NCBI RefSeq assembly: GCF_003073045.1 | Contig: NC_037596.1 | Span: 12,025,950-12,089,949 of the forward strand | DNA: 64,000 nucleotides | Origin: Pomacea canaliculata | Lineage: Eukaryota > Mollusca > Gastropoda > Architaenioglossa > Ampullariidae | Reading direction: 5' to 3' | Part shown: positions 5,793-44,545 of the stretch, in pieces | Layout: each line of letters begins with the position of its first letter | How positions within the stretch are numbered: position 1 is the stretch's first letter | Notes under the pieces: model-generated | What the model saw: the letters and a program-made list of their open reading frames with translations, nothing else | Told to the model about the DNA's origin: nothing | The model's database searches: none | Program-made: the position numbers and the translations under genes

Positions 5793-8700
5793 TTAGGCAG
5801 TTGACGGTGCTGAACCGACTAAAAATGTAATCAGCCATTAGCATTTTCTGTCTTTCTTCAAAACGCTTTCTCGATATACTTTTTTTTCTAATAATACAAC
5901 GACGCAAAGACCCGGGGTAAAGAACCAAAACAAAATAATGAAATGATGGATGGTAATTAATGTTTAAACGTATTAAAAAGTTTATATGAACTTTATAAGT
6001 TTATATGACAACTTCCATGATAAGTATAAATAGTAGACCGCAATCTTATATAACATAAACTTACCGTTTGTATGTTCTCTGGTCCTTATTTTAATACAAA
6101 CGACGACATTGAAGATAACAGCGACAAGCAAGATCCCACCACACGAGAGGCCGATTGCTAGTACACCGACTGACTCTACACACTGGGTTGTTGTCTCAGA
6201 CACTGACTCTACACTTGGGGCTGTTGTCTCAGACACTGTAAATTAAGGAAAGATTCTGGTTTACACAGTCTAGGTAAGGTTTAGCCTACCATGTGAGATT
6301 TTGTGTTATCAGAGAAATGACGGCTTACCATCACAAACTAGATGACTATTGTACAGAGATCCATAGTTAATAATACTACAAACAGTTATTCATATTACCT
6401 GCAGTCATATTAATGAAACATTTTATAAGCTTTTTAAAAGATGTAATAAGATTTACATTGATATAATAATATAAACCTTTATTCTAAAACAGCAACATTC
6501 ACTTAAGACTAAAATGATTTATTGTATTTTACATTTGGTATACCAACAACAGTGTGAACGTAACCAATAAACATGTTGACACAATTCGTATTTTCTACTG
6601 TGTTTTCGGTTTATGGTAATAAAGATGAGTTGACATACGTACTAGAATATTCAGTGATGTTCACTGTTGTAATGTCATAACCTATTTCATTGCCAAGAGT
6701 TATTTTCCAGATTCCTTGGTAAATGTTTTCTTCCGGATGAAGCTTCAACACCAGATTAGGAGGCTCTCCACTCAGGTTGCATTTCACCTTCGGTATGAAT
6801 GTATCCTGTGATGGGGTCGGTGTCAAGGAACATTTATTGAATATTGTTGTGTGTGCTTTTACACGAAATGTTACTTTCTCCAATTGTAAAGATACAAGTG
6901 TGACAGGACCGTCAACAAACTGAGGAGCACCTGCAAACATCAGGAACAAAAGTTACAAATTAAAAAACAGACTAGGTTGTCTTTTATTAAATAAAAAGAC
7001 GTTTCGTTAAAACATACAGATGGGATAAAAAAATAAGGGTTTCAAGTAGAGATAATGTTTTTATAAATAGATGCAAGAATCTTGATATCCTTGGATAAAA
7101 TAAGTCTAAATTAAACTCGTTGACTATCCGTGATAAAAACAGTACCTCAAAAAAAAAAAACCACACACACACTACACAAACAATAACCTTCAGCATAATC
7201 TGCCAGTTCCTGGGTTTGGGGTTTCAAGGACAGAAAAAGTTTACTGAACAAAATCAAACGAAGACTCGATTCAAAAACATTTAAGAAATCAACTGCTTCT
7301 ACTCCCCATCTTTATCGTGAAACAAACACAGTGCACAAGGCTCGTAGGGAACAACATTCAAATAAAAGCATATGATTGTCCACAAAATTTCACATTCACC
7401 AGACACAAATATACACAGCAACACAATTGACTGGTCAGGCGCAAACAAATATCGCAGGGGAACAAACATATTGTGTTGGGGGAGAGGATGTTGTTCTCCA
7501 TGCCCGCTGCTGATGTTCTGTCTGCTTTGGTCTAGGAGCAAAAAGAATCGCAAGGACCACGTGACAGAGACTCGAGGTTCACTTGACAAAAAGATATGTT
7601 TATCCCAGTCCTATCCCCGTGTTACCACTTCGCTTTGATGGGCGCAGCAAGAGGCGGGTCCCCCCCTTCAGCTCTCACCTCTCTCGTAGTTACCACTGAT
7701 CAGATTACTCCACTTCCCAGTCTCTCATTAACATCCCCACCTCTGTAAATTATCTCCCTAGCGGTTTACTTACATCTCACAAGAAAGGACACCGATCTAT
7801 TTATTTCCGACCCGCTTCCTTCACAACGAACTGTCGGCCAGTCGTCTTGACACCTGACTGACAGGGAAACCTTCAGATGCTCTTCACCACTCTTAGTTTG
7901 CATTGCACTTTTGTCCTCTTTATTAGCGATTTCCATTCCATTCATGTTTAAGAGATTAAAGACAGCAGGAGGATTTCCTCTCTTAAAAGAGCAGCAGACG
8001 TTGACTTCACCCTCGTTAATGAGATGAGTACTGTTTACTTCTTGACCGTCTACGGTCAGATTTGTGACCTTGGATGGGTCTGTCGGTAAAAAAAAAAATG
8101 CACATATAAATTCATTCCCATTCCTTAAGCAACTCTTTACTAAACAGAAACTTAAATAATACTATTTACTTACTCTCTTCCATTATTTGTTTATTTAGTT
8201 GTGCTTGCTTATTAACTCAGGCTTTGATTATTTATATTTACTGTATGATGCTTATTGTGTTCTGTTATTTTATACTTTTTATACATTGGATATGCCACTT
8301 GTGTTTCTAGTAGTTATATTTTATTGTCTTTTAAATTCCTTTTTATAAAAGAAAATTTCTTTTTTAATTCCATAACGTTAGAAGGATTCAAATTTTAGTT
8401 GCGTGTTTTGTTTCTCCTGTAGCCAACGACTGTTTCCTTTCTCACACATTCCACTTAACATTTTATTTGTTTGTGAAGACAAACCAACCCCATCAAGTGT
8501 CACTCTACAGCCATTATCAGATTTGTACTTACTAACATTCTGGCATGCTTTAACAAACGATCGGTTGATGTCTTTGTCTTTTAAAGTTGCACAACTTGAT
8601 TGTGTCTGATCGAATCAATCGTGAACAAACTGTTGTTTTACTCACAATCACCCAATGTGTTGTGGTCACATCAAGCAGTCTTAGTAACAATAACGAGCAA

Positions 8701-9514
8701 TAATACAATACTTGAGATGCTATGTTTGTAACTCTAATTACTTACATATCACATCAATGGGTATCAGCAGCACTGTCTGTCTGTGTAGAGTTTTATTCAT
8801 AATGTCGAGATATATAGCAGTGATGGACCGAGTGAGCAGCTGTGAAATCTTCATCTCCCAGGTCCTCACGGAGCTGATGAAGTAGCGACGCTCTGCTACA
8901 CACAGTGTGTCATCTCCGACATTAGCATATTTCACAGTGAAGTCCTGAGACTGCTTTGGCCTTATAAATATGCACAGAAGTGATCTTTTGTTATTTTGGC
9001 ACACTTCAACATAGAGACGTGAGGTGTCTGTAGATACTGAGTTTTCGCTAATATTAAGAAGATAACTAATATTTAAAAAACTTCCTTCGTTTTGAGATAA
9101 CATTTCACTAACGTTCACCTTTCCACCTGAAAATACAGACATAATCGTATTTACAGACATATACAGACATATACTGACTAGCTTTCATTCAGAAACAAAA
9201 CTCAGGTTTGAGAAACTTGTTACAAACGTCACTAAAAAAACGATTTGATTTTATTTTATTGTAAGTAATTGTATGTTATTAGTTTATACTTATTATCAGT
9301 TACATATATAACGTTTTTATGGTAGATAAAGAAAATGTTTTAACATTTATATGTATAAACTGCAATGCCTAGTGTATGATATATGTGCACACAACATATC
9401 AGCGCATTTTTAGTACAAAAAGTTGTGTTACTTACTTGAATTACAAGAAGAGAACGCCAGCTTGTGTAAACTAAATATTATTAGAAAAAAGAAACATTTG
9501 AAAGCTGTCTCCAT
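5793..9514 (-). CDS. Gene A: three-Ig-domain transmembrane receptor, short tail
   Basis: Six exons: 9514-9436 (signal peptide, starts METAFKCFFFLIIFS), 9126-8746 (Ig-like 1), 8079-7774 (Ig2), 6930-6643 (Ig3), 6235-6065 (stalk and TM), 5818-5793 (tail GSAPSTA, stop). All introns are GT-AG and phase 1; the sum is 1251 nt, 416 aa with no stop. Ig2 carries the family signature: Cys, GNPPAVF, then CQDDWPTVRCEG and NRSVSFLVRC. Ig3 has VKAHTT, LSGEPPNL and GNEIG. The TM segment (GVLAIGLSCGGILLVAVIF) is followed by basic KIRTREH. The tail has no tyrosine, so this receptor should not signal through its own ITIM; the Ig domains should be extracellular and N-glycosylated. Splice sites and phase agree with paralogues B, C and D. 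The ligand and precise family name are unknown. Confidence 0.85.
6170..6235 (-). repeat. 33-bp tandem repeat encoding the stalk of gene A
   Basis: Two adjacent 33-nt units (6235-6203 and 6202-6170) differ at only a few positions and encode SETTxxxVESV-like repeats just before the membrane segment. They form a Ser/Thr-rich stalk of the kind often O-glycosylated. Repeats of this length can change stalk length between alleles. Confidence 0.85.
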
Positions 9515-11880: not shown

Positions 11881-13493
11881 ATGTCTACACCTCGCTCTGT
11901 GCTAACAAGTGTGTTCACATTGCTTGTGTTTCTTACAGTGGCTTATGGACACCTGGAAAAGTGTGAGTTTATTGTATACTTTTACGTCTGGATACATTTG
12001 CAGGGATTGACACTTTGTAAGACATAAAAGCATACTGAATTATATTTTTTAGATAGAAAACAGTTACTTGTACAGTCAGCCTATTTACCCTGGTAGCGAG
12101 CGGCTATCATGAACTTAACACTGCAATGTCACATATCACCAGATTGATGAGAAAATGCTCTTTCACACTAACCCCATGGAACCACGTGATATTTTGCACC
12201 TGGTTCGAGCTACGCCATTTCAAAGTTGAATTATATTTTGCTTCAAGTTTGGTGTGAGTTTGAACAGTTACATTTTATTAAAATTACACAGAAATGTCCT
12301 CTAATCTTCACTGATTCAATTCAACATGTATATCTCAATATCCATGCGAAATCTTGTAAACGCGAGCTCAAATACCGACCCAACCATCCAAACTTGCCGG
12401 TTTTCGTGAGGGGTAACATTTATTCTCACAAAATACACAGTATCCTCCCAGTCACACAAACCTAAAGCATACTCTGAACACATAAAGAATACTTGTTCTT
12501 TATTGTGATTTAAAGATGATATTTTTGTTCCTGATACTTCATTAAATACTTTGAATTGAAAACGAGCAATTTTTGTGTGATCGTCGACTTTCCACCCGCA
12601 GGAAGGAGTATGTGCCGGTACCCACTTGTCCGACTACGACTGGAAGCACATTAGAAGTAGCTGAACACAAAGATCTAGCAGTTATCTGTATTGATGATAA
12701 CATATTTATAAAGTTGATGGCTACCTATTTATTCTAGATAATTTTACTGTGCGTCCAGTTCCTGGAAAGTTGACATTATTTTCTGGTCGCCAGTATTTTA
12801 CAGGTTAAATTTTGTCGTATAATACCTTCGTTTCTAATTAGTAATATGAATAACATACTTTAACATACTTGACAGTGTACTGCTTCTAATAAACAGTATA
12901 AACAATGAAAGAGCTCTGTCTGAGGTTAATGCAGGATGACTTGCTTTTTCAGGTGCAGTGCTCGAATTTCTTCACCTGACAGAAAATGTTTGTATCAAGC
13001 AAAACGACTTCGTCAACCTGACCTTCTGGCTGAATACTTCAGGCTGTGAGACATCAGACACAGTCTACATACTGTTAGTGAGGGTCAAAACAGACACAAA
13101 CATCGCCGATGACGAAGGACGGTTAGCTGTTATTAACGGCAGGTGTGACGTCATAATTGGACAATTACTCCGCTGTGTCAGTCCAGCTGGTCCCGTGGAG
13201 CTGTACAGGAGAGTGAACAGAGCGCACATACAAATTGAATGGAGATGGTGGTGGAAGGAAAATGGGTCGTTTACCGACAGAAAGAAAATATTAAACATAA
13301 CTGCTTGTGGTTAGTCTACCTTACTACTTTGCGATGTAAAACGCATTTTTGCTGTAAAACATTAAATGGAGACTTCAGAGACATCTATCCACTTCTTCAC
13401 AAGCAAAACATGGAAACAAAACATGATAGAAATGATGATGATGATGATTGATGATGATGATTGATGATGATTGATGATTATGATTGTTGTTGT

Positions 13494-13528
<35 letters not shown>

Positions 13529-15073
13529 GCCGTTTTTGTTCCAGCACCGTCTTATGTCACAATTCTAACTGTCAACGGACAGGAGACTAACGGAACTTTT
13601 ATTACCGATGTGGGTCAGAACATCAGCATCTACTGCGCCTTTGATAAAGGAAACCCTCCCACTACCTTTCGTCTGTTAGACAGAAATGGAGGTGAAATAG
13701 ATGTCGCTAGAGATGAAAGTCACATTATTCATTCCTTCGCGCCTGTTTCATGTGAAGAAGACTGGCCAGTCATCCGGTGTGAAGGAAACAGGGCTATAGA
13801 AAATAAATTTGTATCATTGCTTGTAAGATGTGAGTATAAAATAAACATTGGTGAAAGTTTTGTAATACAATGCCTATGAAAGATAGTTTAAGAGTCTACG
13901 CATAAATCATAAACATGGATAGCTAGAATTGGTATCTTGACGCTCTGAATGCTTTATGAGCTGTGTTTTTGATTGTTGATTAACTATGTTGTTATGCTCT
14001 AATGATAATGATAGCCTACATTTCCCTACAAAGAATTTATAAAGATGACTGCGAATATTTGGTAATGCATCGATACAGATGTAAGTGCGAGCAATATTGA
14101 GATCATGGGTACATATTTATGTATTAGTGGGAATAGTTTGTGTAAGGCTTACTTTTGTTTCACCAAATGACCGAAAGAACACCAAAACAGTAGATTTTCT
14201 TAATAACAACCTCTAAAAATTGTATTTTATTGAAAAATTAGTTTTAAAAAACGAAATGTATTTCATTTAAGATTTTTTTAATACAGGTCCACCACAGTTT
14301 GCTGACATGGCTCCAAAATTCGTGTATCCAGATGTAAATGATCACGTGATATTAAATATCAAAGCCCACTCGACAACACTCAGTGGATGTCTGTTGACCA
14401 GAGCCTCTACAGAAGAAAACTGGAGACAAAAAGTGAACTGTAGTCTTCATGGTGTTCCTCCGAACCTGACTTTAAACATTAGTCTTCACAATGAAGTGAA
14501 GTTGATCCTGGGCAACTGGACATTAAATGTTACCAATGATATAGGCAGTGGAGACATCGTACTGACATTTATTGCCACCTCTGGTATGTATTTTTGTTAC
14601 CTTTTCCAAATTATTTAATTGTTAAACAAAATTTTTGAAGTTTACGAAAACATAGTAGTTCTAAAAAGATGAAAAATATAAGTCTGGTAGCCCCTTTGCA
14701 CTGCATTTTGGTATAGGAATGTGTCTATATAAGTACTTCTTACATTAGAGACAAATTAATAAAGAACAAAATAACGCCTGTAACTTGGAAATAATCCTCA
14801 ATTAATGTTCATTTTATAGGTAGGGTTAGGCCTTGTAACCAGCTGTTTGAAAGTAGAAAGCTCAATTTCATGAATAATGAGATCAGTGGTTAGCAGCTAA
14901 AAGATATAATTAACCTCAAATATCATATTAATATTCAGATTAGGGACATTTGCATGAATTTTAGTGCCTGCCACCCGACTTAAGCTTTGCTTATGCTTTC
15001 CTGTTATTCTCTCTCCTAAGGATCTGTGAATGGAAAGGAAAAAGTTTCTAAGGATGATATAAAGAACACTTAA
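11881..15073 (+). CDS. Gene B: three-Ig-domain protein, probably secreted
   Basis: Exons: 11881-11962 (signal peptide MSTPRSVLTSVFTLLVFLTVAYG), 12953-13306 (divergent N-terminal domain), 13545-13829 (Ig2), 14287-14583 (Ig3), 15021-15073 (last exon). Introns are phase 1; the total is 1071 nt, 356 aa, uninterrupted. Ig2 shows VNGQETNG, FDKGNPPTTF and CEEDWPVIRCEG. Ig3 begins PPQFAD and has GNWTLNVTNDIGSG. The N-terminal domain has four cysteines, a WRWWWK stretch and little similarity to A, C or D. The last exon follows a strong pyrimidine tract and adds GSVNGKEKVSKDDIKNT and a stop. I found no transmembrane exon between 14584 and about 17500, so a soluble product is likely. The donor of exon 2 (GTGGTT) is weak. 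The secreted ending is less certain than the four upstream exons. Confidence 0.75.
12155..12640 (+). repeat. Dispersed repeat R1, single copy in intron 1 of gene B
   Basis: It contains 'caaataccgacccaaccatc', 'aaccacgtg', 'tttcaaagttgaat' and a 3' part 'gaaaacgagcgattttt..gtgatcg..ccgca/gcgggaagg'. The same blocks, in the same order, occur at 35450-36870. It is probably a non-autonomous transposon. No terminal repeats or target duplications were identified, so the class is unknown. Confidence 0.6.
13431..13530 (+). repeat. GAT/TGATGA microsatellite next to the Ig2 acceptor of gene B
   Basis: Imperfect (GAT)n with TTG interruptions ends about 14 bp before the Ig2 acceptor (ccgtttttgttccag). 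It fills the space where the branch point should lie, so length changes could affect splicing. Confidence 0.85.
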
Positions 15074-15171
15074 AAAACATTTAGCATTTGATTATAGGTC
15101 ACTTTAGATATTTGAAATTAGTAGTATCGTGCAAGGGTCATATCATCTGGTGAATATATTTTACAAGTTAG

Positions 15172-15177
15172 ATTAAA
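15172..15177 (+). promoter_or_regulatory. Possible poly(A) signal (ATTAAA) of gene B
   Basis: ATTAAA lies about 100 nt after the proposed stop at 15073. It agrees with 15021-15073 being a terminal exon but is weak alone. Confidence 0.35.
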
Positions 15178-15254
15178 GACATCTAGACACAATCGCATGC
15201 AAAGTTGACACACACTTAGTCATGTTTAGAATGGACTTTTTATTTGATATGATG

Positions 15255-15780
15255 TTACCCTGTGTTATTATCATTAGGTGAAAGGACCAGGTATGTCCAT
15301 GTATTATTATTAAGTAAAAGGACCAGGTATGTCCCAGCATAAACGGAAAATTTGGCCAAGCTTGGGGAAAGCTTGTAACATTGGTTTGCCCATTGCCAAG
15401 CATCCCCCAAGCAAACGCCAGAATCTTCAGCATTCGCGGTGCGCGCGCAACGTGATCTGCGATCGCGAGATTGGCGAAACCTCTTCGCCGCCAAGATGTT
15501 CAACACAACCCTGGCCGCCAAAATTGAGCCAGTCTCACTGACATGAATATTCATGACTATCAAGTCGCTGTTCGCTAAGAAAAGATTTTCACGGCGTGTG
15601 TTTGTAATTATAATTATTTTTAGATTGTTGTGTCGCTTCAGAATGTCAACAAGTATATAGAAAACCCTCGCACGTGTTCCTGTTGCCTTCTAATTAGAGC
15701 GAAATAAAGTGGCTTGTTCTCTAGACTTCATTGGTCTTCAGTTTTCAGTCTTCACGTTTTGTCACAAGTTTTTTAAGGTA
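15255..15780. other. GC-richer block of unknown origin between B and C
   Basis: Base composition rises (gcgcgcgcaacg, gcgatcgcgag, ttcgccgccaag) in a very AT-rich neighbourhood. The block begins with two tandem copies of 'aaaggaccaggtatgtcc', contains the palindrome tgaatattcatga, and ends with gcgaaataaag then TC-rich sequence. It could be an old transposon or LTR fragment or a CpG promoter. I could not find matching ends or a target duplication. Confidence 0.3.
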
Positions 15781-17698: not shown

Positions 17699-19351
17699 TC
17701 AATCGTTGTTCCGAGCTTCAATTTTCTTGTTGCCGGCAGTCTGTAGTCTCGGGGAGGTGACTTGGATTTCAGTGTACTCTGTTTTTTCTTCAGTTCCGAT
17801 GATGACTTTGGACAATTTCGTGTTTGTGAAAATTAGGTCTCCGTAGATCAATCCGTCAGCATTTCTGTTACAGGGGGGCTTTTTCTGATACAATATAAAT
17901 ATAATGTGTTATCTTTTGAGCGACTTTCTCTGCTAATCTTAGAATAATGCTAATCTTAGGAAAGGTACAGCAACAAACAAAAATTTATTACGAAACAGTA
18001 TCTGATTATAGGTATCAAAATGGAAGCTGAAATTAAGAAGTGTTTGAAAACCTGACAAACCTCTGGATCTGGGTGTGGGCTCGTTTCAGCTGCATTAGTA
18101 GCTGTGTGACTGGATTCAGCAACATAGGTCTCTCGGTCTATGATAAATTAAGAATCTTTTCCATTTAGAATAATTTTTAGGCTTTTATCTGCAGTATAAT
18201 ACAATACAATGATATATATATATTACATAACACTATACAACGCAATACTACAATAATACAAAATACATTGACTGTCGAACGTGAAAGCTTTTTTGTGGGG
18301 TTTTTACTTTTTGTTGTATTTTTTTGCATTAACGATATCTAATTTTTACATTTATCACCAGCGCGATAAATTTTGTTTGAACTGTTAAATATTAACTTAT
18401 TCTGTCGCGCGTCTTCTCTTGCCAAGCATCTCTTGCCAAAACATGTCACCCTGTTTTACAATGGGTTGACAAAATGGCGGAAAAATGTAGGAGGAATTTT
18501 TTTCTATTTCAGTTACTGATATCTGCTATAAGCTTACTAACTTTGATTCTGGATGTGGTGAAGATCAATTTTTAGGTTTTGTCAGTTTTACAAAAGGGAC
18601 AAGTCGAGAGGCTGTTACTGGGAAATTATTGTTTAACATTTATTGTGTAATAGTTGTTAGTTACATTTAGTTAATATCATTAAACGAATACAAGCCTTCA
18701 AAGAGGTAGAGTTGTTTCTAAAAAAAAAAAAATCACAAATATCAAGGCGTTGACGTGGACGCAAGGTTCTGTGACAGTCAGATTTGCTCTACTACATATA
18801 AACAATATTGAACGGTTAGACTTTCTTACCTTTTTTCTGTATTTGTTTCTTCTCTCGGACTTTACGTGCAGAGACGTAAACATTTTCGGATGTTTCAGAC
18901 GATGAATTACCTGAGTCAAAGCAGTCAGTAATGATATAATAATGTAGATCATAGCGGGCAGATAAATAAACTTGCTACTGAAACCAGGGTCTTTGTATTT
19001 TTGTGTGTGTGTGTTTCTTCTTGCCTTTCAATTTGGCGTTTTACCTCTTAACATCACTTTGTCTAGCTCTATGTTCTCGTTGGGTCCATCTCTCTCTCTC
19101 CTCTCTCTGACACACTCATGAAATCAATGAAATTATTTCTTTTAACTTCGAATGAGAGAATAACATAAATTAAATTCGGTCAAAGAATAATGATAACGTA
19201 CGAGCATCTGACTGCGTGTCTCCAGTAGGTAGACGTGAGCGAAGAGGGCGGGGTGGAACTTCCGATGAGGTCGGTGGAACGGGACTACGGTCAACGATGT
19301 TGTTGCTGTCAGCTTCTCCGCTTGCCTCGATCAGGTCATTCACGATCATAG
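17699..19351 (-). CDS. Cytoplasmic tail exons of gene C: ITIM, ITSM and SH3 motifs
   Basis: Four exons (19351-19202, 18910-18830, 18137-18061, 17884-17699) join in frame (phases 1, 1, 1, 0) after the TM exon. In order they encode: a linker ending in a proline motif PPRPLR (class II SH3 ligand, PxxPxR); ENVYVSARK; RETYVAES; and a last exon with LIYGDL (fits ITIM [SIVL]xYxx[LIV]) and, 23 residues on, TEYTEI (fits ITSM TxYxx[VI]). In vertebrate receptors this pair recruits SHP-1/SHP-2 or SAP-like SH2 proteins; recruitment here is inferred. All four exons have GT-AG borders and none contains an internal stop, which argues for selection on the tail until recently. Confidence 0.75.
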
Positions 19352-22300
19352 CTATTGACAGGGAAAAAGTCAATCAACAAAGTCACCTCGTGTTAATTTA
19401 TAAAAAAACAATACAAAGGCACAGCTAAAATCGCTGGAAATAGAGCATAATGTATCACAAAAACATACTCGGTGGTATTTTATGGCAAAGAGACACGAGA
19501 AATATTATAGTAATGCTTTTGTCTTAATACCACCTTGAATTTTAGAGAAAATAGAAAGTGACGAAAGGGAACATTTCTAAAAATAGTGTCGTCTGAATAA
19601 GCTGAATTCGAAGAGAAAAGATGCAATCCTCTGTAGAAGAAAACAGACAAGGACACGATACGTTGTTGATGATGAATGTTCTCGTCGACAATGAGATAGA
19701 GTTAGTTTTTGTGCTTTATTTAAATGTGCTGTGCAACGTTTGTCATCAGACTGTATTCAAGAATTTACTCAAAACATTTCAAAAACTATTATTATCTAGT
19801 ATCTTATACAAGTTTTGTCCTTTCAGTACTTTTCGTCCTACAGCAGTGCCAACTCTACAAAAACACCAGCTGTTAAAGCCAACGACAACTAAGACTAATG
19901 CACACACGTGTTTGTTTTATTAACAATAACACACATGGGAAAATATCTAAAATATTCCAGTAACAGAGAATGAATAGCACAACGTAGACTGCAATGACCT
20001 GATTGCTTCCCATTACGTTTTGATCTGGAGAAGATTTACTTACCAGTCTGTTGAGTGAATTCAGTTTGGACCTTTCAGTCAAAGCTTGTAAAGAAATATT
20101 AAATCTGTAAAATCCGTTTTTTTGGCAAACAATCGCTGCTTGAGCGATATTTCTTCTTTTGACTTGAAAACATGCATAGATCTGCTGAACTGAGCCACTC
20201 GCTGTTATAAGCACTGCTCGCCCGCAACCGAGCTCTCCAGTGTAGGAGAGCAATTTTCTTCTCCATTTCAGTGGCAGGTGAGAATTTTTTTTGCTTGAAG
20301 GCTTACATCTTGAAAATTAAGCATAACTGTGTACTCATATTTTGGAAGTTGTTATTTTAAAATGTTTTTAATCCGATCATGAAGAAAAAATAGTATACTC
20401 GTCTTGTTCTTTACAAAATTTCCCCTAGGACGTGTCGCTCTTACTTTTCGCTTTTAAACATTAACGGAAATATAAAAAAACGAAACAAAAACCACAATTA
20501 AAATTTAAGTATCAGATACTGCCACTTATTCAGATTTTAATGACTCACTTGAAGAATTTCCTTGAAGATTTCCGCTCGTACTTTTCCTGCAGCAAAAAGA
20601 ACTGCACTATATGGTTTATATTTGATTGCAATCGTCTGTGATTAATTTAAAACACTGATTGTCAATATTGGTTTATATTTGAATCTGGGAGGAAATCATT
20701 TTAAAAAATGATATAAAATATAATAATTTACTAAATTAAATTTTCCTTAGTATAGAATATCTTAACTAATTTGTTTGTCTTCATGCTGTTAAGTATGACA
20801 ATAGTTTATTCTTTGTCTATGGTAATGTATATCATGTGAATCTCATTGATAAGTTATAAGATTCCACACGCTATGGCTCTAGAAAGACTTAAACAATATA
20901 AAGTAAGTGTACCATTATTTTTTTTATAAAGTATGTCTAGGAAATTCAGTGCATTCAATCTGTTATGGTTTGTTTCTCTTGCATGTAAAAGTAATGGAAA
21001 AAAAGACGGAGAAAACACATGCTGCCTATAGTCATATACGTTGATATAAAAAAGCAATCAAGAAAAAATATTTAAAGAAACTTTTTAACAATTCAGAGAT
21101 AGTCACTTACAGTGTATTATAGTAACATGAAGAATGCCACTAAACAAACTCATTTTAGGATTCTAATGGAGCAGCAAATAGAATAAATATTAAATTTCAA
21201 CAGCTTGTGTTTAAGTTATTTATCATTTTAAATTTCTTATATCGTTAGTACGTAGCTGTACCAGTGTAAAATCAGCAAAAATACTTACATTCCTGCCACT
21301 TCTGCCACAGAGGTAGCAACCAAGACACAGAATTAATATCAGTGCAACAGCAAAGCATTAAGTTAGAGGATCGACCAAATATAATTGTCAGGAGAAATAA
21401 AAGTAACTCGTCTGTTAATCATTTAGGGAAGTAACAATCTGTCCGTTAGAAACTGTTATATAGGTCAAAGTTATCTCAATGTTCAATCCTAGAAAGAACA
21501 ATGCAAAAAGGAAACACGAGAAACAATAAATGATAACTAAAATAAGGAATGTGGTAGTGAGTGTCATTAATTAGCAATACAAATCACAAGATAGTAATTA
21601 AAGATGGCTAAAGGGGCGAACATAGCCTGTATACATAAATCACAACTGTTAAAAATATTATTTATGTCTGTGTATTGGATGAAAAAAAAATTACCATGTC
21701 TCTGCCTTTTCACATTTCTAACAACAATTATGCTGACAACGACGATAGTAACGAAAGTCACCACAAAGCCACACATAAGCGCAGTGGTTACGTTTGTTGG
21801 TAATGCTGCTTTTGGAGGGGATGCTGTAGAATCTGAAACAACATGTATGATTCTGGACTCAATATCTAACATTGATTTCTAATCAGTCGGTTAGTTTTTA
21901 AAGCCTATTCAAATCCACTGTATAGTAGACCAGCGTCGGTTGTTTTCTCTACTTACAGATAACATGTACTCAGATGTTTATATGTACAGCTGTTACTAAG
22001 ATGGTATTCACCAATGTCTGTGATATATATAGTTACCCATCAATGTCTGAACAGGAACATGAACATGTCTGCTTGTAAGATGTGCTGCCTATTCTTTTTT
22101 ATGTTTATATCCTCATTTTTTGCGAACGCGTTCTTGTATGTGTACATATCTGCTTTATGTACGAAGCACACAGCTACGTATTATTTGATTTGCATTTTTG
22201 CATGCTTCTTTTTTCCTGAGGTACTATATTTGTGAGCAAAGACATTAGAAAATTGCTAGTACTTCTCAGCTTCCATGTATGCTTACTTAAACTTCCCAAA

Positions 22301-25046
22301 ACACGGATTGTTGTGGTAGTTGATCCTATTTCATTGCGAAGAGTTAGGGTCCAGTTTCCTTGGGTGATGGCTTCAGTGTCTGGGTGAAGATGTAGCTTTA
22401 GATCAGGAGGTTTGCCATGTAGGGTACATCTCATGTTTCTTTTGGTGATGTCTTGTGAGGACACTGCTGTCAAGAAACATGCAGTTAATAATGTTGTGTG
22501 AGCCTTGACTGGAAGTTCTATGATATCACGAGCATATGTAGTGTAGATTTGCGTCGAGACGTCAACAAACTGCGGAGGGCCTGCAACAATAAAAACAGGA
22601 AAGTCATGGTAGAGTCAGTTACATTTCTTAAAAGTAACAGTATAGAATAAGTGTAAATAATTCTTATCACATTATCAAACAGGACAGAGATTACAAAAGC
22701 TCATTCTTTCTATTAAAAAATCATGATTCATTTAAAATCAAAGTTTCATTGTAGCATTCATTTTAAAAGAATTTCGGTAGTAAATGGTATATGCGTTTTT
22801 GCCTTAAATGCCTATATTTAACTCGTGTTTCAGACCAGATTGTGCGCATTGATACAGCACAAATTTTATGGGATAGTTAAAATAATGGTACTAATTTTTT
22901 AATTTGTGACTGTTGTGTGATGTATTAAAGTCGAAATTGAAATCATGGTTGTAGTTACTTTTCAAACGGAATAGGGTATCATTTTGTTTAGAGAAACAAT
23001 CATAAACTCTGTAATTTATTAGCAAATGTGAACGCATTAGGGTGGCGATTACTTCGAGATATCCCAGAGAGAATTTAGAAGTTTGTACTTAAGAGAACAC
23101 CACAGATATATTTTAAGAGTTAAACTCGCGACCACGAAAGCCTTTATCAGATAGACATCAAAATACTACACATACAAAAGGCTAAGTCATCTAATACAGG
23201 AGCAGGAACGGAAACAGCCAACAGGGAAAGTTCTCTACCACAACAATAGGAGTATGTCAAGGATATCTCTCTTTCCCTACATTTTTCTCTAACACTCCTC
23301 CGTCTGCACAAATTAGACTTCAGAAGTCATAAATTATTTTTGTTTACTGACAGTCGTAGCTGATATGAATCTAAGGGTTTCGAAAACGAACTAGGTGAGT
23401 TTACAAGGAGTCAAACGTCGATGCAGCTATTGTAATCTGCTGCGCAAATTCATGTTTTAACTTAAACTTGATGTGAAACCTTTCATTTCTATCTTGACTT
23501 TGAAATCGTTTGACCTCTTGGCCTTATTAATTAAAATCAAGAGAATATTTTTCAGAAGCTTGTATATAATATTTAGTTTGGAGACATATAAACTGTAAGA
23601 AACTATTTAGCATGATGTTTACGCCCTGCACATTGCTGGGAAAATGAAATAATGGAAATATTGTTTATGAACAGCTGACTTCTTTCTTGCAAGGTAGCAC
23701 ACATTTTAGTCCTTCGTTCACGTCGTTCTCACACACACACACAAAAACTACTCACTCGAATATACAAATTCCTTGAGACATAAATAGGGTTAATATTTGT
23801 TTGCAAACGAAAAATCTTATTGACAAGTATCATAGGATCTGAAATACGATAGCTGAAATCTGTGTACTTACACCTGACGAGGAATATCACGGATTTGTTC
23901 TCTTGCGTCCCGTTTCCTTCACATCTGACCATCGGCCAGTCATCTTCACACTCGGCAGTAAGTATGTGATGAAGGTGTTCTTCATCATGTGACGATATCA
24001 GTTCAGTTCCGTTTTTAAGTAGCAGACGGAAAACAGCTGGTGGATTCCCCTTCTCAAAGTAGCAGGACACATTAACCTCCTGACTATTATTGATAAAGTA
24101 ATTGCCGTTTACCTCCTGTCCATCCACAGTCCAGGCTTGTGATGTTGGGTGGGTCTGCGCAAGTACACACATTAGGGTAGTATTTCAACAAGATGCATTT
24201 ATAATAGTTTATATTATGATCATTAACATTTTTTCATCTCACTTTTTCATGTTTCATAAATATATAAAGTAACTAATCAGTCAACTATCTAGTATTTTCA
24301 CGAAATCGCAGTTCTTTAATAGTATTCCTTCCCTGTCTTCATCTCTCTGCTGATCGCTAGAGTGAAACGTTAGATCATGATCATGATTTTGTCCTCCATT
24401 TCGACACACCCGAGTTGAGTGTTGAGAAAAAACACCTCATTTAGCATTTCAACAATCACATTTCAAAATGTTGTGGCCTGTAAACATGATTCTATTTGTG
24501 GGCTGGAAAATCAGCACAAAACTTAGATGTGAACGCTAAAAAAAATTTCAAGATTTCATTTTAATATATTGACTATTGCAGTATGTTTGGAAAGACTTAA
24601 ATCACAAAAGCAGGACTTGCCTGCTACTTGGAATAAAACTTAATATATAATACTTCATATATTATTATACTTACACAACACCTTCAACGTGTCTCAGTAG
24701 TATTGGTTTGGGTAGCCCACTTGTACTGGTGGAGAGTATCATCGCACTCAGTGACCTCGTGACGAGCTGAGAAATGTTGATATTCACAGACACCACAGAG
24801 CTATTCGCGTTTACTTGTTCCAAGTAGCATGTAACTCCTGCTTTTTGACTCAAGTTTTCCCCAAACACACTGCCTAAGTCAATGTTTTTCATTTCTTTAC
24901 TGAAGTAACAAGCTGTTTTCTTTACGCCTTCTTCACAAACCGTATAATCGGCAAAAAAATAGTTTCCTGTGATGTTGAGGTGTAGGTAATATTACTAAAA
25001 CTAAATTCTTCTGCGATCAGATTCTCGGTAAAGTTAGATATTCCAC
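17699..25046 (-). CDS. Gene C: Ig receptor with ITIM/ITSM tail; ectodomain frame-disrupted
   Basis: Exons: 25046-24675 (Ig1), 24154-23872 (Ig2), 22580-22287 (Ig3), 21832-21695 (TM), 19351-19202, 18910-18830, 18137-18061, 17884-17699 (tail, stop TGA). From Ig3 on, the frame is open for 309 codons with compatible phases. Ig3 begins PPQFVD and has GNWTLTLRNEIGS. The TM is FVVTFVTIVVVSIIVV then RNVKRQRH. Ig2 has FEKGNPPAVF and CEDDWPMVRCEG. Compared with gene D, Ig1 loses frame near a T7 run (about 24961), and Ig2 has one extra base near 24131 (exon 283 nt instead of 282). I found no signal-peptide exon 5' of 25046. Either C is a recent pseudogene, or these are assembly indels or a missed exon. 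The tail makes it an inhibitory-type receptor. 3' end not firmly placed. Confidence 0.7.
19352..21694 (-). other. Large intron of gene C between TM and tail exons
   Basis: About 2.3 kb, AT-rich. Open frames at 19621-19923 and 19873-20253 overlap in opposite directions and show no domain. An alternative short last exon like the one in gene A could be hidden here; I did not identify one. Confidence 0.4.
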
Positions 25047-27379
25047 CTGAAAATGATAGAAAAAGTCGACATAAATGCTTAGTTATTTAATATGAAGTAT
25101 ATGATTTTCTTACGTGTATCAAATAACTTCATGTATATGGCACGAAATTAACAGTTATAAATCAGATGGTGATGAGGATGATGGTAAATGGGCTTCGTAT
25201 AGCACTTGAACACAGCTTTAACATCGCTCTATTACGACACTCGCGCAAGTAATTTTTTATATCATTCACGCATTCGAATGGAAGTCAAATATTTGCTAGG
25301 TGTTCATATTTTACAACCCTTCTTAAACTTTCAAAACATTTGTTTAAAAAAAATTGACAATGATCCTTCTCCCTCTCTCTTGTCACACGTGTAACCTGTC
25401 ATGCTGACACGCAACTGTCCCACCAAAATCAGTCTTTTCACCTGCCTTCTACTTCTCTACAATATTTGAGTTATTCTCTATGCGCTAATCATGAACAATA
25501 TGAATGATTAAAATTGTACAACGAAGGAATACTATGAAATCTACGGATGGCATGGAGCAATATCCAGACAAAAATTTGTGGCCTAATTTTCCAGATTTTT
25601 TTTAAAACAATAATCTCATTAAATATAACACCCGTGCTGATTTAGAGGGACCTAAGTACACAAAACAAGAATATGGCTTTCAGCAGGGAGCAAAGAACAG
25701 ACACAAGTTTCTCGGAAAAGGTCGACAAACAGAAGGATAGTTCATCCTCCATATCGTCATTGAACAAGGACATGCCCACATCTCGGTTATGGTTAAATGC
25801 ATTATGTGAAAAACAGACGCCAGTGTTGGATGACTGGCTAATAGATCAAAATGAACTCAATAATAATTCGATGTGTGGAGTATTTCAGCAAACAGAACAG
25901 GCAACGACGATGAATGCCACCGAAAAAATATTAAATGTAGAGGCCAGGCAATAAAGTTTTCACGCAAACAGTGAGAACATTTTCTACAAATATCTATAAA
26001 TTTGATGAAAGAATTTTCTGACACTTTTAGAATTATTTTATTACTTCTTTCTAACAAATTATGTGAAAGGCATACAATTTTCAAAATTCATTGCTTACAG
26101 CTGAAAAGAGGTGCTCCTTTCGACAATAAGAAAGCAATCAAAATGATACACCCATTACTCCTTGATGTGTACATGATGGAGTGTTCTCCCGGTTCTGATC
26201 TCAGTTCACCAGCGGCTACGAAGTTTTCACGGAAACATTATCCTTAAGTCTCACTTCCGCCTTGACACCACAGTTTCTGTTTCCTTGCGAACCCTGTACA
26301 CGGGTGTTCAACTGGACGATCCCGAGACCCGAAGACCTAGGTCATCAGGACCGGGACCCAGAATGCTTTCACATGTAAATGTGGGGTGAAGCAAAGTAAC
26401 TTGTAGAAGTGCATTGAGGGATCGTTGCTAGTACCAAATGTAAGGCACATGCAAAAATCACGATATTAGAAAGGTATTCTACTTACAAACTGTATTTAGT
26501 TTCTTATGTATCATGAGCGTAAATGTTACTATTTACGATGGTTCCTTTTTTACATTCTACTCAGCTTGCTTAAATAGTGGCACTGGCCAATTCGATTATT
26601 GGACAATTTTACCAAATACTTGAATCGATTCGACATAAATTTGGCAGTAGTTTTGAGTATAAGTTACGAAAAAGGGCTGTTTCTGTGCAGCGATGATTGT
26701 TGTTTTATTTTAAGATTAGAGCCTTGTGTTTATCATTCCTCTTCTTTATTGTGTGAGCAAATAAGCTTGAATTCGTAAATTGTTTAATTGACTAACCACT
26801 GAATGATTTGGTGGTGGTGGTGGTTGTTGGTGTTTTATACCGGGAGATACATCATTGTAAAGTTACAGTTAATAGTATTAATGTTATAGTTAATAGTGGT
26901 AACAATTAAACTAAATCGAAGTAAAATAATCTGAAATAATGTTGTAAATTTGCATATTTTTTGTAATTTAATAAAAAATAAATTGTAAATGTAAATATTA
27001 TTCTTAATATAATTAGAATGATTTAAAAAAAATTGTTTTGTATATTTATATTTTTATTTGTGCATTGCATTTACACTGTGCAAGTAAAAGTGTTATCTTG
27101 TTGTATACGTTATGTGCTATTTTTGTGATAGATTAATTGCATATTTCGAAAAAGTAAAATAAACTTGTAAAGAATTCAAACAAAAATTATTTCATGAAAT
27201 GACGCTTTTACATGTTTATTTACGATTGCATTAGTTTATGAATTGAAAATATAAAATTCACATAAAATTATGTCTTTATGTAGCACTTTAGTAGTGTTCT
27301 AAGGTATTTCCTTATTTTTTTGATTGCGTAGTAGACCAGACTGCCATTCTCCACGTCTGCTGCGAATGTAATAACTAAC
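25047..27379. other. Region upstream of gene C, no signal-peptide exon found
   Basis: In A and D the signal exon lies 310-360 bp upstream of Ig1. The matching interval here has no minus-strand ATG followed by a hydrophobic core and a phase-1 donor. The 93-codon plus-strand frame at 25673-25954 is polar and Ser/Asn-rich, without domain or splice support. A GC-richer patch lies at 26270-26380. Confidence 0.4.
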
Positions 27380-35338: not shown

Positions 35339-36700
35339 AATAATTTGGTGATGTTTGAAGCTCTTATATGTATTATCTACAAATCTTAGAAGTCCTCTAA
35401 TACTTTGTCTGAGAAGTTACCAACACTGACTTTTTACTCGACTGATTTAAAAATTAATTTGCGAAAGCTTGTGAACTCGAGCACGAATACCGACCCAACC
35501 ATCAAAAAAGGTTACACGGCACACGTAAAATGTCTGCGAAGGCTGCCATTTTGTATGCCGGGTACCATTTATCCTCTCTAAATACACATGATTTTTTCAG
35601 TTGCACAAAACAAAAACAAATTGTAGCTGCATTTGAAATTAGAAGTAATATTCCACGCTATTCAGAAGAAATACTATTTCACGCTAACCGATGTAACCAC
35701 GTGGTTCAAGCTACTTCGTTTCCAAGTTGAATTTTTTATGTCGTCTTTTATTGTGCTTTAATTTCGTTGATAACTGCATAGACTTTCCAGTAATCTTCGG
35801 TGATTTAATTCAATGCGTATACATCAGTATCCATTTCGAAGTCCTGGTGAACTCGAGTACAAATACCGACCCAACCATCAACATGCGTTACACGGCACAT
35901 GGAAAATGGCCTCCGCGAGGCTGCCTATTTCTTTGAGCCGGGTAGCGTTTATCCTCTCAAAATACTCATGATTCTTAAAGTCACATGTTTAAAGCTCTTG
36001 TCTATGTATTATCTGAAAATCTTATAGAAGTCCCCAAGTACTTTGTATGAGAAGTTACCAACACTGGCTTTTTACTCAGCTGACTTAAAAATTAATTTGC
36101 GAAAGCTTGTGAACTCGAACACAAATACCACCTCAACCATCAACATGCAGTACAAGGCACACACGGAAAATGTCAGTTGAGAGGCTGCATTTCTTGTATG
36201 CCGGGTACTATTTCTCCTTTCTAAATACAAATTCTTTCAGTTACACAAAACAGACAAATTGTGACTGCATGCGCCAATTATTTTAAGGATAGGTCCCTTT
36301 ACCTTGTAATAGCTAGCTATTTGAAACTAGAAGTAATATTCCACGCTCTTCAGACGAAATTACTATTCCACGCTAACCGATGTAGCCCCATGGTATCGTG
36401 CACGTGCTTCAAGCTACTTAGTTTCAAAGTTAACGGATTTTTGCGTCGTCTTTTACTGTGCTTTAACTTCGTTAAAAATTACATAGACTTTTCCTCCAAT
36501 CTTTACTTATTTTATTCGATATGTATACATCAGTATCCATTGCAAACATTTTTGAACGCGAGCACAAACACCGACCCAACCATCAACATGCGCTACACGG
36601 GGCACAGAAAATAGCTGCTGAGAGGTTGCTCATTTTCCTGCTGGGTACCATTCATCCTCACAAAATACAAATAATTGTTTCAGTCACACAAAACAAATGC
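35339..36700 (+). repeat. Tandem duplication (about 638-bp period) of repeat R1
   Basis: 'gagaagttaccaacactg' at 35412 recurs at 36050, and 'ttaatttgcgaaagcttgtg' at 35455 recurs at 36093. Within each unit the R1 core ('caaataccgacccaaccatcaacatgcg') occurs twice, so four cores lie at about 35475, 35855, 36115 and 36560. Each is followed by 'acacggcacac...gaaaatg..' and a 'gccgggtaccatttatcctctc' block. Open frames here are by-products of the repeat. Element class is unknown. Confidence 0.8.
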
Positions 36701-36739
36701 ATATTCTGCTCAACTAGGAAAAGTTGCTTTGCATAGGGA

Positions 36740-36870
36740 TTTAAATGTAATTGTTGTGTTCCTGATAAACCATAAAACACTTCGATTTGAAAACGAGCGA
36801 TTTTTTCGTGCGATCGCCGCTGTCCACCAGCGGGAAGGCGTGTGAGCCGGTACCTACTAATATTATTATT
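36740..36870 (+). repeat. R1 3' module
   Basis: 'gtgttcctgat..ttgaaaacgagcgatttttt.gtgcgatcg' and 'gcgggaaggcgtgtgagccggtacc' match the end of the gene B intron copy (12520-12625). This shows that the tandem array ends with the same terminal module as a single element. Confidence 0.6.
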
Positions 36871-38229: not shown

Positions 38230-39530
38230 AAAATATGTTTTTGTGTTTATTCCTTATTACTCCTCGAGGAGCATAGGGCAGTAACAACACCTCGCCAGCG
38301 GACCCGGTATAGGGCAGCCCTTCCCTTCAGCTGGGCCCATGTTGTTCCGATGTCCGTTGCCTCGCTCTCTGCTGTTCTTTTCCAAGTTTGCTTCGGTCTC
38401 CCAACTCTCCTCTTCCTCTGAGGGTTCCAGTAAAGTGCCTGCCTGGCAATGGTGTCAGCTGGTTTGCGCAGGGTGTGTCCTATCCAGCTCCATCTGACCT
38501 CTTGGCTAGTGGCATTCTGGTTGTTGTTTTTTTTTCTACAGGCTGCTGTTGGAGTTCTTTTCATGCCATCTTATTCCAAGAATATGGCGTAAGCATTGGT
38601 TGGTAAAGGTCTACAGCTTGTTGTTGATAGTATTTGTCACTCTCCAGGTTTCAGAATAATACAGTAGGACTGCCTTCACATTGGTGTTGAAGATGCGGAT
38701 CTTACTGCGGAAGGGTAATGCTCGGGAGTTCCAAATGGACCACAGGCTGTTGAAAGCATGCCTGGCCTTGTTGATGGGGCTTTTGATGTCATCGTCCGCT
38801 CCTCCGTTCTTGTTGACAATGCTCCCAAATACTTCAAGCTATCTGTTTCCAGGATGTTCTCTCCTAGAAGCTGGATTGGGAATTCCTGCTTGTTATTGAT
38901 TCTTATTACTTTGTTATTCTTTTTGTTGACCTTTAAGCCATTCTTTCTGCTTCCTCCACTTGCTTACTCAGTTTGGTTTGTGCATGTTGCTGCCGCTGAG
39001 ATAGGAGACTAATGTCTTTTGCATAGCTTAGGTCCTCATGCCATTTGTGAAGGTCCACTGGATACTGGTGTTGTTGTCTTGGGTTGTCTTGTGCATAGTC
39101 CAGTCTGTGACCATTAGGAAGATTATCGGTGATAATATGCAACCCTGTCTTACGCTGGTCTTCATTACGAAAGTTTTAGTGAGTTTGCCACTGTGGATAA
39201 CTTGGCAGGACGAGTCTTCGTACAACCCATGAATAATGCTTATGAGCTTAGGTGGAATACCGTAGTGGATCATCAGCCTTCAGTTGACGTCCCGTCTACA
39301 CAGTCAAATGCTTTCTCAAAGTCGACAAAAGTTATATGAAGGGAGGGTTGACACTCAATAGACTGCTTAATGATGATACTGATGGTGACTATGTCGTCAG
39401 TGCATGACCTATCCTGACAAAACCGTGCCTGTTCTGATCTCAGTCCTTTGTCTTGATTTATGCACATGTTTGCTACTATGTATGGCAGTCTTTGATGCAA
39501 TCTGTGACATTTGTTAAAACACACTTATCC
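38230..39530 (-). mobile_element. LINE (non-LTR retrotransposon), 5'-truncated, decayed reverse transcriptase
   Basis: On the minus strand successive frames give reverse-transcriptase blocks: LRSEQARFCQDRSCTDDI, FVDFEKAFDCVD, YGIPPKLISIIHGLYED, SVRQGCILSPIIF. The 3' block (38564-38247) has VRWSWIGHTLRKPADTIARQ, RRVGRPKQTWKR, WAQL and a terminal LCSSRSNKE before the stop. This C-terminal pattern (WIGHxLR...GRPKxTW...LCSSRxNK) is common in mollusc LINEs of the RTE-like/endonuclease-RT type. Several frame changes show it is inactive; the 5' end is missing beyond about 39530. The clade assignment is tentative. Confidence 0.8.
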
Positions 39531-42198: not shown

Positions 42199-44545
42199 TT
42201 TCACCATAAATGATGCTCAGTATAGTGTTGGCAGAACCTTTTTCATTTCGAAGATTCAGTGTCCAGTTCCCTTGGGTAATACTTGCTTGTTTGTGTAGAT
42301 AAACGCTCAGGACGAGATTCGGTGGTTTACCGCTAAGGATGCAGCTTAGTCCTCTGATGTTGTTGTTGTTGTTGCTGCTGCTGTCGTCGTCTGAAACCAC
42401 TGGTGTCAAGTGGCATTCAGTGAACGCTGCCGTGTGAGCCTTAACATGATATGTTAGCTCTTCAAAAGATCGTAGATTAACGATTTTCATTTTTTCAAGA
42501 AACTGAGGAGGACCTGTGACAAATTAACCATTTAAATTAAATTTATCTCTGCACTTTAATTACGGCAAAAATTACGTAAAATATTAATTCAACAGCTCAT
42601 TATTAATAAACTGAACCCACATTAGAAATAAACCATTGCTACTGTTTGAGACATCAGAAAACAACGTAACATTGAGACACAATTTTTTAAGACTCCATTT
42701 TGTAAGGATACTTTATATTTATTAAGTATTTCTTGTATAATTATACTTTCATCATTAGTACTATTTACTGCATAGCGTTAAAGCTTAGTCCTCTTTAACA
42801 CAGTTGTGGGAATTTGAAACCTCGATACTCCCAGGAACATAAAGATGGTTTCACAGGCCAAGGCACAAAAAAAACATTTTCGACAGCGTCTGGGATCAAA
42901 GACATTGTCTCATACCCAGGCATGCAATTATATTTCTCGCACGAATATGGAAAAAAAGGGGGAGGGAATTCACATTCTCATATGCATTCACATTAAAAAC
43001 ACATGTATCAAACTCTAGGCATGCAGTAGCAAGCTCTTGCTTAGATATAGAGACAAACAGTGGATCTCAAAGACATGCCTATCAGTCTGTGCACAAAATA
43101 AACAGGTTACTGAACTTATTGTGAGGTAGATGATATAAAAACTCAAGTCATACTTACACCTGACCAGAAAGGAGACTGATCTGTTCCGTGTCGACCTGCT
43201 TCCTTCGCAGCTGACCACTGGCCAGTCGTGTTTGCACCAGACAGTGAGTGAATAGCTGAGATGTTCTTCATTACCAGCAGATTTAATTTCATATCTATAT
43301 TTATCCAGAAGCTGAAAACTGATTTGGGGGTTGCCTTTGTCAAATACGCAGAAAATATCGGTCTTTTTGCCTTCCTCAATAATGTAATCACCATCAACCT
43401 CGTGTCCGTCGACGGTCAGACTTGAAACATTAGGTGGGTCTAACACACACACACACAGAGAAATATATACAAACAAACGTACACACACACACGATAATAA
43501 ATACACTTGAGGAAGCACATTTAGTAATTATCAATACATACATAAGTAAACGTTTGAAAGCATACTGTATGATTAAATCTTTCTATCCGGTAATTATATT
43601 TTGGAATATTTTGGGAGTATTTAAAGATTATTAATTAAAAAAAATAAGAAAGAAATTACATGTGACTAAAACCAGTTCTGAATATGTCCATGTATTTAAA
43701 TAAAATTGTATAGATAAATAGAGAGAGAGAAATAGCTTACTCACAAAGTACATTAACATGGATGATTCGCTTTGGTTTGGCAATCCCGCCTCTCCCTAGA
43801 GACAGCACCATCACACTCAGTGACCTCGTGATGACCTGAGAAATGTAGATGTCTAAAGCCATCACAGACCTGCTGACATTTCGTTGTTCCCAGTAGCAGC
43901 TAACTCCTTTCTTTTGGCTCCTGTCGTGGCCAACCATGGTCATAGAGTCCTTGTCACGAATAAAGCTGCATGCAGTTTTTAAAGAGTTCTCTTCACAAAC
44001 TTGATAAACGAAGTTAACTGTCTCTGGTGTTGCCGTAATGTCGACAGTATAGTTGGTGTTAATAGAACCATTTTCTTCTTCGGAAAGGGTGTCAGTAAAA
44101 TTAGATAGTCCACCTAAAAACAGAAAAGCCTAGTATTAAATTAGTTTTCTAGTTCTACCCTGAATTCCTCTTTGTATAAACTTTCTAAAAAAATTGAATT
44201 TGTTGTTTTAGTATTAAAATGGGCTTTTTCTTTTTGAGGATGAAAAATCGTTTGGCTTGATATTGTAAGTTCTAATGGCATGCTATTAAAGAAAAACAAA
44301 ATTTAACAGAAATTGCCAGAAATTTTGCACGAACAATCAGCCTGCTCATCATACTTACTGAAAAATGAGCTACAAATTTAGTCTAAAATAGTTTACAGAG
44401 AAATTGGCCAAAATAATTCAGTCGAGGATTAGCACGCTGCATCAAAACGTTTATAGTGTCAGAACTTACAGGTCGAGGCAAGTACTTTTTTCTGCAATAA
44501 CAAAAGTAGAAAACAAACGCCAACAGTTCTCCAGGACGCGCTCAT
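42199..44545 (-). CDS. Gene D: three-Ig-domain receptor-like gene, 3' end not found
   Basis: Exons: 44545-44470 (signal peptide MSASWRTVGVCFLLLLLQKK), 44113-43745 (Ig1), 43439-43158 (Ig2), 42513-42199 (Ig3). All junctions are GT-AG and phase 1 with no internal stop (347 codons plus 1 nt). Ig1 includes VCEENSLKTACSF, GVSCYWEQ and SQVITRSLSVMV, matching gene C. Ig2 has VDGHEVDG, FDKGNPQISF, CKHDWPVVSCEG and NRSVSFLVR. Ig3 begins PPQFLE and has LSGKPPNLVL and GNWTLNLRNEKGSA. After the intact donor at 42198 (GTAAGCAT) I found no TM exon down to about 37000; a SINE and LINE lie there. D may be truncated, secreted through a short unrecognised exon, or have a distant tail. It is closest to C in the first two domains. 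Confidence 0.75.
42358..42393 (-). repeat. Trinucleotide run encoding a Asp-Ser-Asn tract in Ig3 of gene D
   Basis: A (GTT)n(GCT)n(GTC)n run, read on the minus strand, encodes DDSSSNNNNN between two conserved strands of Ig3. A, B and C lack it, so it is a recent in-frame microsatellite expansion in a surface loop. Confidence 0.85.

Follow-up and report, generated by a model that had tools for sequence, protein, structure and literature searches.

A putative family of inhibitory-type receptors with many tail-less relatives on one chromosome of the apple snail Pomacea canaliculata

A 64,000-nucleotide stretch of chromosome NC_037596.1 of Pomacea canaliculata (C7, 31 Mb; positions 12,025,950-12,089,949, hereafter the window, to which feature coordinates refer) carries four related genes, A to D, with similar predicted ectodomains and different ends. 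The question it raises is whether a mollusc possesses a receptor system of the kind represented by the paired immune receptors of vertebrates. A preliminary description had read the genes as a cluster of modular receptors with three immunoglobulin (Ig) domains and tails of differing signalling potential. This observation is confirmed in part and its interpretation is partly supported: the window probably holds members of a lineage-specific family of gastropod receptors, type I and inhibitory-type, accompanied by relatives that were repeatedly stripped of their tails.

Each of the four genes has one signal-peptide (SP) exon and three ectodomain exons (D1, Ig2 and Ig3) with AG/GT borders, as had been proposed, and when exon borders and phases are rebuilt A, B and D have phase-1 junctions throughout. 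Stop-free chains extend over 405 codons in A (SP, D1, Ig2, Ig3 and a transmembrane (TM) exon), 340 in B and 347 in D, and A shares 49-60% identity in the Ig2 exon with B, C and D (the C copy as typed spans two frames at its first residues). The four genes are real, and they are a small sample of a family. In a search of the genome (440,159,624 bases, 24 contigs), an Ig2 query of the C type gives at least 151 matches (150 of 163 candidates scored), with every listed match on C7. After merging split matches, including the four of the window and leaving out a near neighbour at 12,419,692, there are at least 145 Ig2 sites on this chromosome, some of them partial or broken: at least 88 at 11.19-13.28 Mb, 34 at 14.86-15.77 Mb and 23 at 17.08-18.45 Mb. 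Both strands are used by the 141 listed sites outside the window (61 plus, 80 minus). Queries with Ig3 and D1 give 128 and 61 matches, again all on C7. A fourth, diverged block of Ig2 and Ig3 exons (L048 and L049, C7:21.66-21.79 Mb), with a TM-like exon in L049, is found near fibrinogen-domain genes.

Gene C had been credited with a long inhibitory-type tail, and this part of the claim stands: Ig3, TM and four tail exons (t1 to t4) are in frame to the stop, and the tail exons are intact, while D1 and Ig2 of the same gene are frame-broken as assembled. The last exon, t4, contains LIYGDL and TEYTEI, which we take to be an immunoreceptor tyrosine-based inhibitory motif (ITIM) and an immunoreceptor tyrosine-based switch motif (ITSM), respectively; the definitions of the activation motif (ITAM) and of YxxΦ applied below are assumed in the same way. 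As a query, t4 of gene C has 18 matches in the genome, all on C7. An exact DNA pattern for LIYGDLxF has 19, 17 of them in the C7 blocks, against 4 genome-wide for a reversed-pattern control. Query and pattern combined give 22 t4 sites, to which a second t4 query (E ≤0.05) adds 9, for a total of 31; a looser pattern discriminates weakly (at least 145 matches vs at least 114 in the control genome-wide) and was not used. Twenty-five of the 31 exons lie no more than 10 kb downstream of an Ig2 exon on the same strand, compared with 6 in a strand-swapped control and a mean of 4.9 (maximum 12) in 2000 random placements inside the three blocks.

Across the 22 t4 exons that were read, the L, Y, G, L and F of L[IV]YG[DE]LxF are invariant (4 of the 22 had been found by the ITIM pattern alone and 18 by similarity, and the reading frame was picked by the ITIM motif). 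The second tyrosine and its spacing were not part of this selection; it follows exactly 23 residues after the first in all 22 exons, with T at position -2 in 21, and the strict form TxYxx[VI] is seen in 19, the others having TEYAAL (twice) or MEYAAI (once). The ITIM columns average 0.91 pairwise identity, the ITSM columns 0.67 and the linker between them 0.30. An ITAM reading of t4 was ruled out by the 23-residue spacing together with a pattern check. Further upstream, the tails of C, L041, L042 and L047 contain t1 and one to three matches to exons of a YVS...VRK type, whereas none of the latter was found in L045. This YVS-type exon (Y-V-S or a close form, then a basic stretch) has the appearance of a second tyrosine module. 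An arrangement of this kind is read without a stop in gene E (12.61 Mb, minus strand), which is open for 507 codons from Met through SP, D1, Ig2, Ig3, TM, t1 and two YVS exons, with all junctions in phase 1 and t4 following downstream.

Ectodomain and tail have become separated repeatedly. Gene B had been described as having a probable soluble end, and a scan of 14,580-18,500 found no hydrophobic phase-1 exon. Its alignment with a sister gene, L112 (12.00 Mb), breaks off after 14,720 and resumes at 14,831. The stretch between measures 110 bases in B vs 631 in L112, the TM exon of the latter included, so that B, judging by this alignment, lost its TM exon by a deletion of about 520 bases. The loss is on the side of B, since L112 matches a tailed relative, L047 (TM, t1 and t4 present), across the stretch. 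In gene D, likewise held to be without a recognisable TM exon, there is no hydrophobic phase-1 exon in a scan of 42,200-36,500, and a comparison of D-like copies gave no common downstream exon that might serve as its last.

In gene A the TM exon is present and no tail exon was found. In Ig2 the gene shares 91% identity with a tailed one at 12.24 Mb, and the DNA match between the two runs through Ig3 and TM and ends at about 6,022, save for a 78-base piece at 3,684-3,608, while the relative continues to t1 and t4. The match to L041 likewise ends after TM, save for one 39-base piece. A full tail for gene A was rejected, as tail queries had no convincing match between its TM exon and the neighbouring gene; a likeness of 9 residues to t4 at 2,599-2,573 was not used. 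A has a duplicate at 11.99 Mb (L052, C7:11,985,000-11,992,300), 90% identical over 6.2 kb (window 6,956-237), which by its sequence is a recent segmental copy of the 3' part of the gene and the DNA downstream; it has the TM exon, and no tail exon was found in the stretch compared. The TM exon of A is real, but the short tail free of tyrosines given in the preliminary description is not established, as the DNA match stops after TM and the frame of the candidate exon that follows differs (by eye) from that at the same place in L052.

On a tree of 78 Ig2 copies, 21 of them labelled as tailed, 15 changes of label are needed and at least 10 are forced by well-supported branches, although the tree is built from 94 columns of a non-random sample and 33 of its 75 inner branches are open. 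Only 7 of 500 shuffles give so low a count, which indicates mild clustering of the tailed copies; with three fewer tail labels (18 of 78) the count is 17, a value reached by 402 of 500 shuffles, and no clustering is seen. The label "no tail" depends on the sensitivity of the search, as is evident from the 9 copies added by the second t4 query. To judge from these comparisons, the tail has repeatedly been lost or exchanged among ectodomain copies. The tree alone cannot separate gain from loss, but the occurrence of t4 in both of the largest blocks, which lie well apart, suggests that most changes were losses.

The explanation favoured here, and probably the right one, is that these genes encode type I receptors of inhibitory type and their tail-stripped relatives. 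The basic layout would be SP, D1, Ig2, Ig3, TM and a tail made of t1, one or more YVS-type exons in most tails seen, and t4. In members that keep t4, both tyrosines, 23 residues apart, would be phosphorylated upon ligand binding and would recruit an SHP-2-type phosphatase with tandem SH2 domains, which the fixed spacing would suit, so damping activating signals in the cell. Many other members would have lost the tail, or the tail and TM, through small rearrangements. With ectodomains of the same type in short-tailed or secreted form, they may act as decoys or soluble binders for the same or related ligands, or alternatively as partners of adaptors. That the genes are expressed, that the tail is phosphorylated and binds a phosphatase, that the receptors serve immunity and what the tail-less members do are all predictions from sequence.

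Several points weigh against this explanation, in addition to the mild clustering, the limits of the tree and the dependence of its labels on search sensitivity. The gene models are predicted from the genome, and no activating counterpart was seen among the TM exons and tails read. For six of the 31 t4 exons, the 10 kb upstream contain no listed Ig2. Two of these six, outside the blocks at C7:9,666,931-9,667,032 and C7:10,339,872-10,339,955, are the only t4 exons of the 31 with a stop and are stray tail remnants; for another two (15.14 and 15.19 Mb) a listed Ig3 lies some 2 kb upstream. In gene E, no phase 1-to-0 exon was found that would bring t4 in frame after the YVS exon. The single ITIM gene of the window, C, is frame-broken as assembled, with 9 stops and two frame breaks when SP, D1 and Ig2 are read as one chain, although in gene E the frame stays open from Met past TM and into the tail. 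Since the published assembly is based on PacBio reads, with Illumina reads also generated (PMC6129957), the breaks in C could reflect either errors or a pseudogene.

Among 38 Ig2 copies, the Pfam model Ig_C17orf99 matches 30, Ig_2 22, Ig_3 14 and ig 10 (E ≤0.1; best 1.1e-6), whereas Ig3 is barely recognised, with Ig_3 matches in 2 of 31 copies and a weak match to a titin Ig domain (E 0.2) over the last 30 columns. None of 19 D1 copies matches an Ig family in Pfam, and the D1 profile finds no PDB chain up to E 10; the first domain, earlier called Ig1, is for this reason named D1, and of the three Ig domains first proposed Ig2 is the secure one. A Pfam scan of three joined ectodomain sequences gave sub-threshold matches only, and a genome search with the Pfam model 'ig' listed one match in the fourth block and none in the three main ones (best 150 of 726 candidates), so routine annotation may overlook the family.

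Against PDB, the Ig2 profile has its best matches among adhesion-type proteins (SYG-2, E 0.0037; DSCAM, E 0.035), with weak ones to CD22 and MAG (E 0.18-0.67). This would fit a non-immune family that uses ITIM-type tails in cell adhesion, allorecognition, gamete recognition or a neural surface code, an alternative that deserves attention but is unlikely. Families with so many copies, repeated loss of the tail and recent segmental duplications are more usually immune ones. No fusion allorecognition is known in this solitary snail, which also counts against it. ITIM-type tails are nevertheless found in Botryllus allorecognition and on Hydractinia candidates (PMC12065747).

It might also be supposed that the locus is mostly a graveyard, the tail-less copies and C being decaying pseudogenes around a small working set. 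The two frame breaks in C would fit, as would a stop inside three listed Ig2 matches and the splitting between frames or partial nature of others. Reverse-transcriptase-like frame pieces downstream of D (window 38,247-39,524, minus strand, several frames; by eye, from the reading-frame list) are counted on the same side. However, most listed Ig2 matches cover the full exon without a stop, and A, B and D are open across their ectodomain exons. In 11 pairwise exon comparisons of close copies, the ratio of nonsynonymous to synonymous substitution (dN/dS) is below 1 throughout (0.21-0.68), a range that would argue against free decay, although these estimates include time before tail loss and in that respect weaken the case for retained function. 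With the mixed read types of the assembly, single-base breaks in runs could be either errors or genuine (PMC6129957). On this evidence general decay is improbable as an account of the family.

A role in endocytosis is a further step down in probability. Here t4 would be an endocytic tail with YxxΦ tyrosines that clear ligand by clathrin uptake, and its bearers would be scavenger or clearance receptors rather than inhibitory ones. YGDL or YGEL at the first tyrosine and Y-x-x-[IL] at the second do fit YxxΦ, YADI fits as well, and this speaks against a purely inhibitory reading of the tail. Yet neither L at -2 nor F at +5 nor a fixed 23-residue spacing is required for YxxΦ, and all three are kept in every t4 exon read (L and F did belong to the pattern that alone found 4 of them); T at -2 of the second tyrosine is kept in 21 of the 22.

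An ordinary lineage-specific expansion of the Ig superfamily, of the FREP or C-type-lectin (VIgL) kind, is very improbable, for although most listed fibrinogen-domain matches are on C7 and the fourth Ig2 block is near them, members with TM and ITIM tails are unlike the secreted FREPs. A fusion with such domains was rejected, there being no listed Fibrinogen_C or Lectin_C match in 11.19-13.28, 14.86-15.77 and 17.08-18.45 Mb of C7 (best 150 of 481 and best 150 of 360 candidates, respectively). The listed fibrinogen-domain matches on C7 are at 20.5-21.7 and 27.6-28.7 Mb, as if this chromosome gathered immune-type families.

The exons of the four genes are collected in Table 1.

Table 1. Exons and other features of genes A to D, in window positions
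Feature	Position	Strand	Remarks
Gene A SP exon	9445..9514	-	open, GT donor, hydrophobic core; phase 0 to 1
Gene A D1 exon (earlier "Ig1")	8746..9126	-	open, phase 1-1; related to D1 of C and D
Gene A Ig2 exon	7774..8079	-	open, phase 1-1; nearest tree-set copy 91% identical
Gene A Ig3 exon	6643..6930	-	open, phase 1-1
Gene A TM exon	6065..6235	-	no convincing t1-t4 match downstream as far as neighbouring gene
Gene B SP exon	11881..11962	+	
Gene B D1 exon, divergent	12953..13309	+	open, phase 1-1
Gene B Ig2 exon	13545..13829	+	open, phase 1-1
Gene B Ig3 exon	14287..14583	+	open, phase 1-1
Gene B deletion site	14721..14830	+	110 bases vs 631 in sister L112 (12.00 Mb); L112 TM exon within missing part
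Gene C candidate SP exon	26099..26174	-	one among several candidates; phase 0-1
Gene C D1 exon	24673..25046	-	frame break in T run; two frames each match D1 of gene D
Gene C Ig2 exon	23872..24154	-	frame break near start
Gene C Ig3 exon	22287..22580	-	open, phase 1-1
Gene C TM exon	21695..21832	-	
Gene C tail exon t1, proline-rich	19202..19351	-	like exons in L041, L042, L113
Gene C tail exon t2, YVS repeat type	18830..18910	-	
Gene C tail exon t3	18061..18137	-	phase 1 to 0
Gene C last exon t4	17699..17884	-	LIYGDL (ITIM) and TEYTEI (ITSM) 23 residues apart, then stop
Gene D SP exon	44470..44545	-	
Gene D D1 exon	43745..44113	-	open, phase 1-1
Gene D Ig2 exon	43158..43439	-	open, phase 1-1
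Gene D Ig3 exon	42199..42513	-	no TM exon found downstream to 36,500

Some other features of the region may be mentioned. Left of the window there is a B-like gene (L043, C7:12,021,446-12,022,222, plus strand) in which Ig2 and Ig3 are each split over two frames, and at C7:12,417,868-12,420,003 two Ig2-Ig3 pairs on one strand, 1.3 kb apart, are possibly one gene with doubled domains. Within the window, recurring short translations (e.g. STNTDPTI...YTAHGK forms), seen by eye at about 12,190-12,630 and 35,390-36,740, suggest an interspersed repeat. An open frame of 223 codons (56,960-57,631, minus strand) lies inside the GC-richest stretch (54-58 kb).

Beyond the favoured explanation, a more ambitious one can be put forward only tentatively, and is somewhat doubtful: a protostome may have evolved, independently of vertebrates, Hydractinia and Botryllus, a system on the scale of KIR and LILR, with well over 100 germline ectodomain copies confined to one chromosome and an ancient ITIM-ITSM module repeatedly stripped into short-tailed or secreted competitors, which would set the activation threshold of hemocytes against diverse ligands. 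If true, few animals would have an ITIM-based receptor family as large. Tails of ITIM type turn off immune cells in vertebrates, and so large a protostome family, with a tightly constrained inhibitory-type tail and many tail-less relatives, would suggest a repeated origin of the design. It would also allow snail immunity to be tested through receptor signalling. No paper on this receptor family was among those listed by a literature search, the scope of which left most subscription journals and preprints outside. The genome paper of this invasive host, which mentions interrupting the transmission of parasitic nematodes, does not contain the word "immunoglobulin" in its main text (PMC6129957).

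Among known systems, the family is most readily compared with the KIR, LILR, CD33-type Siglec and SIRP receptors of vertebrates. These paired receptors are clustered Ig genes with phase-1 exons, ITIM or ITIM-ITSM tails, and relatives in which the tail is shortened or missing, and the snail genes resemble them in all of this: related ectodomains are clustered, at least 145 Ig2 sites strong, inhibitory-type tails are present and conserved, and different ends occur on related ectodomains, as first described. Kinship by sequence extends to weak Ig matches only, and the snail family differs in having one domain not recognised as Ig and far more copies. It also differs in the lack of an activating partner. 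All 10 TM exons seen, checked over their whole length, have an uncharged run of 23-30 residues (3 of the 10, those of A, L052 and L112, come from genes where no tail exon was found), and there is no ITAM or hemITAM in the tails of C and E or in the 22 t4 exons, no genome-wide ITAM search having been made. As no adaptor-coupled activating form was seen, the genes appear not to be paired immune receptors in the strict sense, contrary to what had been suggested.

Molluscan Ig-type immune proteins may also be compared. The oyster proteins CgSiglec-1, with two I-set domains (PMC5877582), and CgIgIT2, with five Ig domains, TM and an ITAM rather than an ITIM (PMC11999971), are described there as single genes. 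Clusters are known from Biomphalaria sudanica, where the PTC2 and LG16 regions contain single-TM genes, some with Ig domains only, and one PTC2-linked gene is listed with a 'SHP2-interacting transmembrane adaptor' domain (PMC10875847), and from a pearl oyster, with clustered Ig-domain genes that often have a TM domain (PMC9646362). C-type lectin and FN3 domains occur in these clusters, and the passages of these papers that describe them mention no ITIM/ITSM tail.

Other invertebrates come nearer in design, as far as published descriptions allow a comparison. The Alr complex of Hydractinia is, like the snail family, an invertebrate Ig-type family in one complex (41 genes; PMC11999971), with ITIM/ITAM motifs among its candidate genes (PMC12065747); it differs in being cnidarian, in its V-set and I-set domains and in its allorecognition role. 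The fester co-receptors (FcoR) of Botryllus are type I Ig receptors from a polymorphic locus, which may have an ITIM tail (PMC12065747), but they combine a V-type Ig domain, sushi and two C2 Ig domains, include hemITAM forms and each have an adjoining fester partner. Vertebrate paired receptors, Hydractinia Alr and Botryllus FcoR thus appear, by these comparisons, to be the nearest designs to the snail family, and in them ITIM systems with differing ends are already known.

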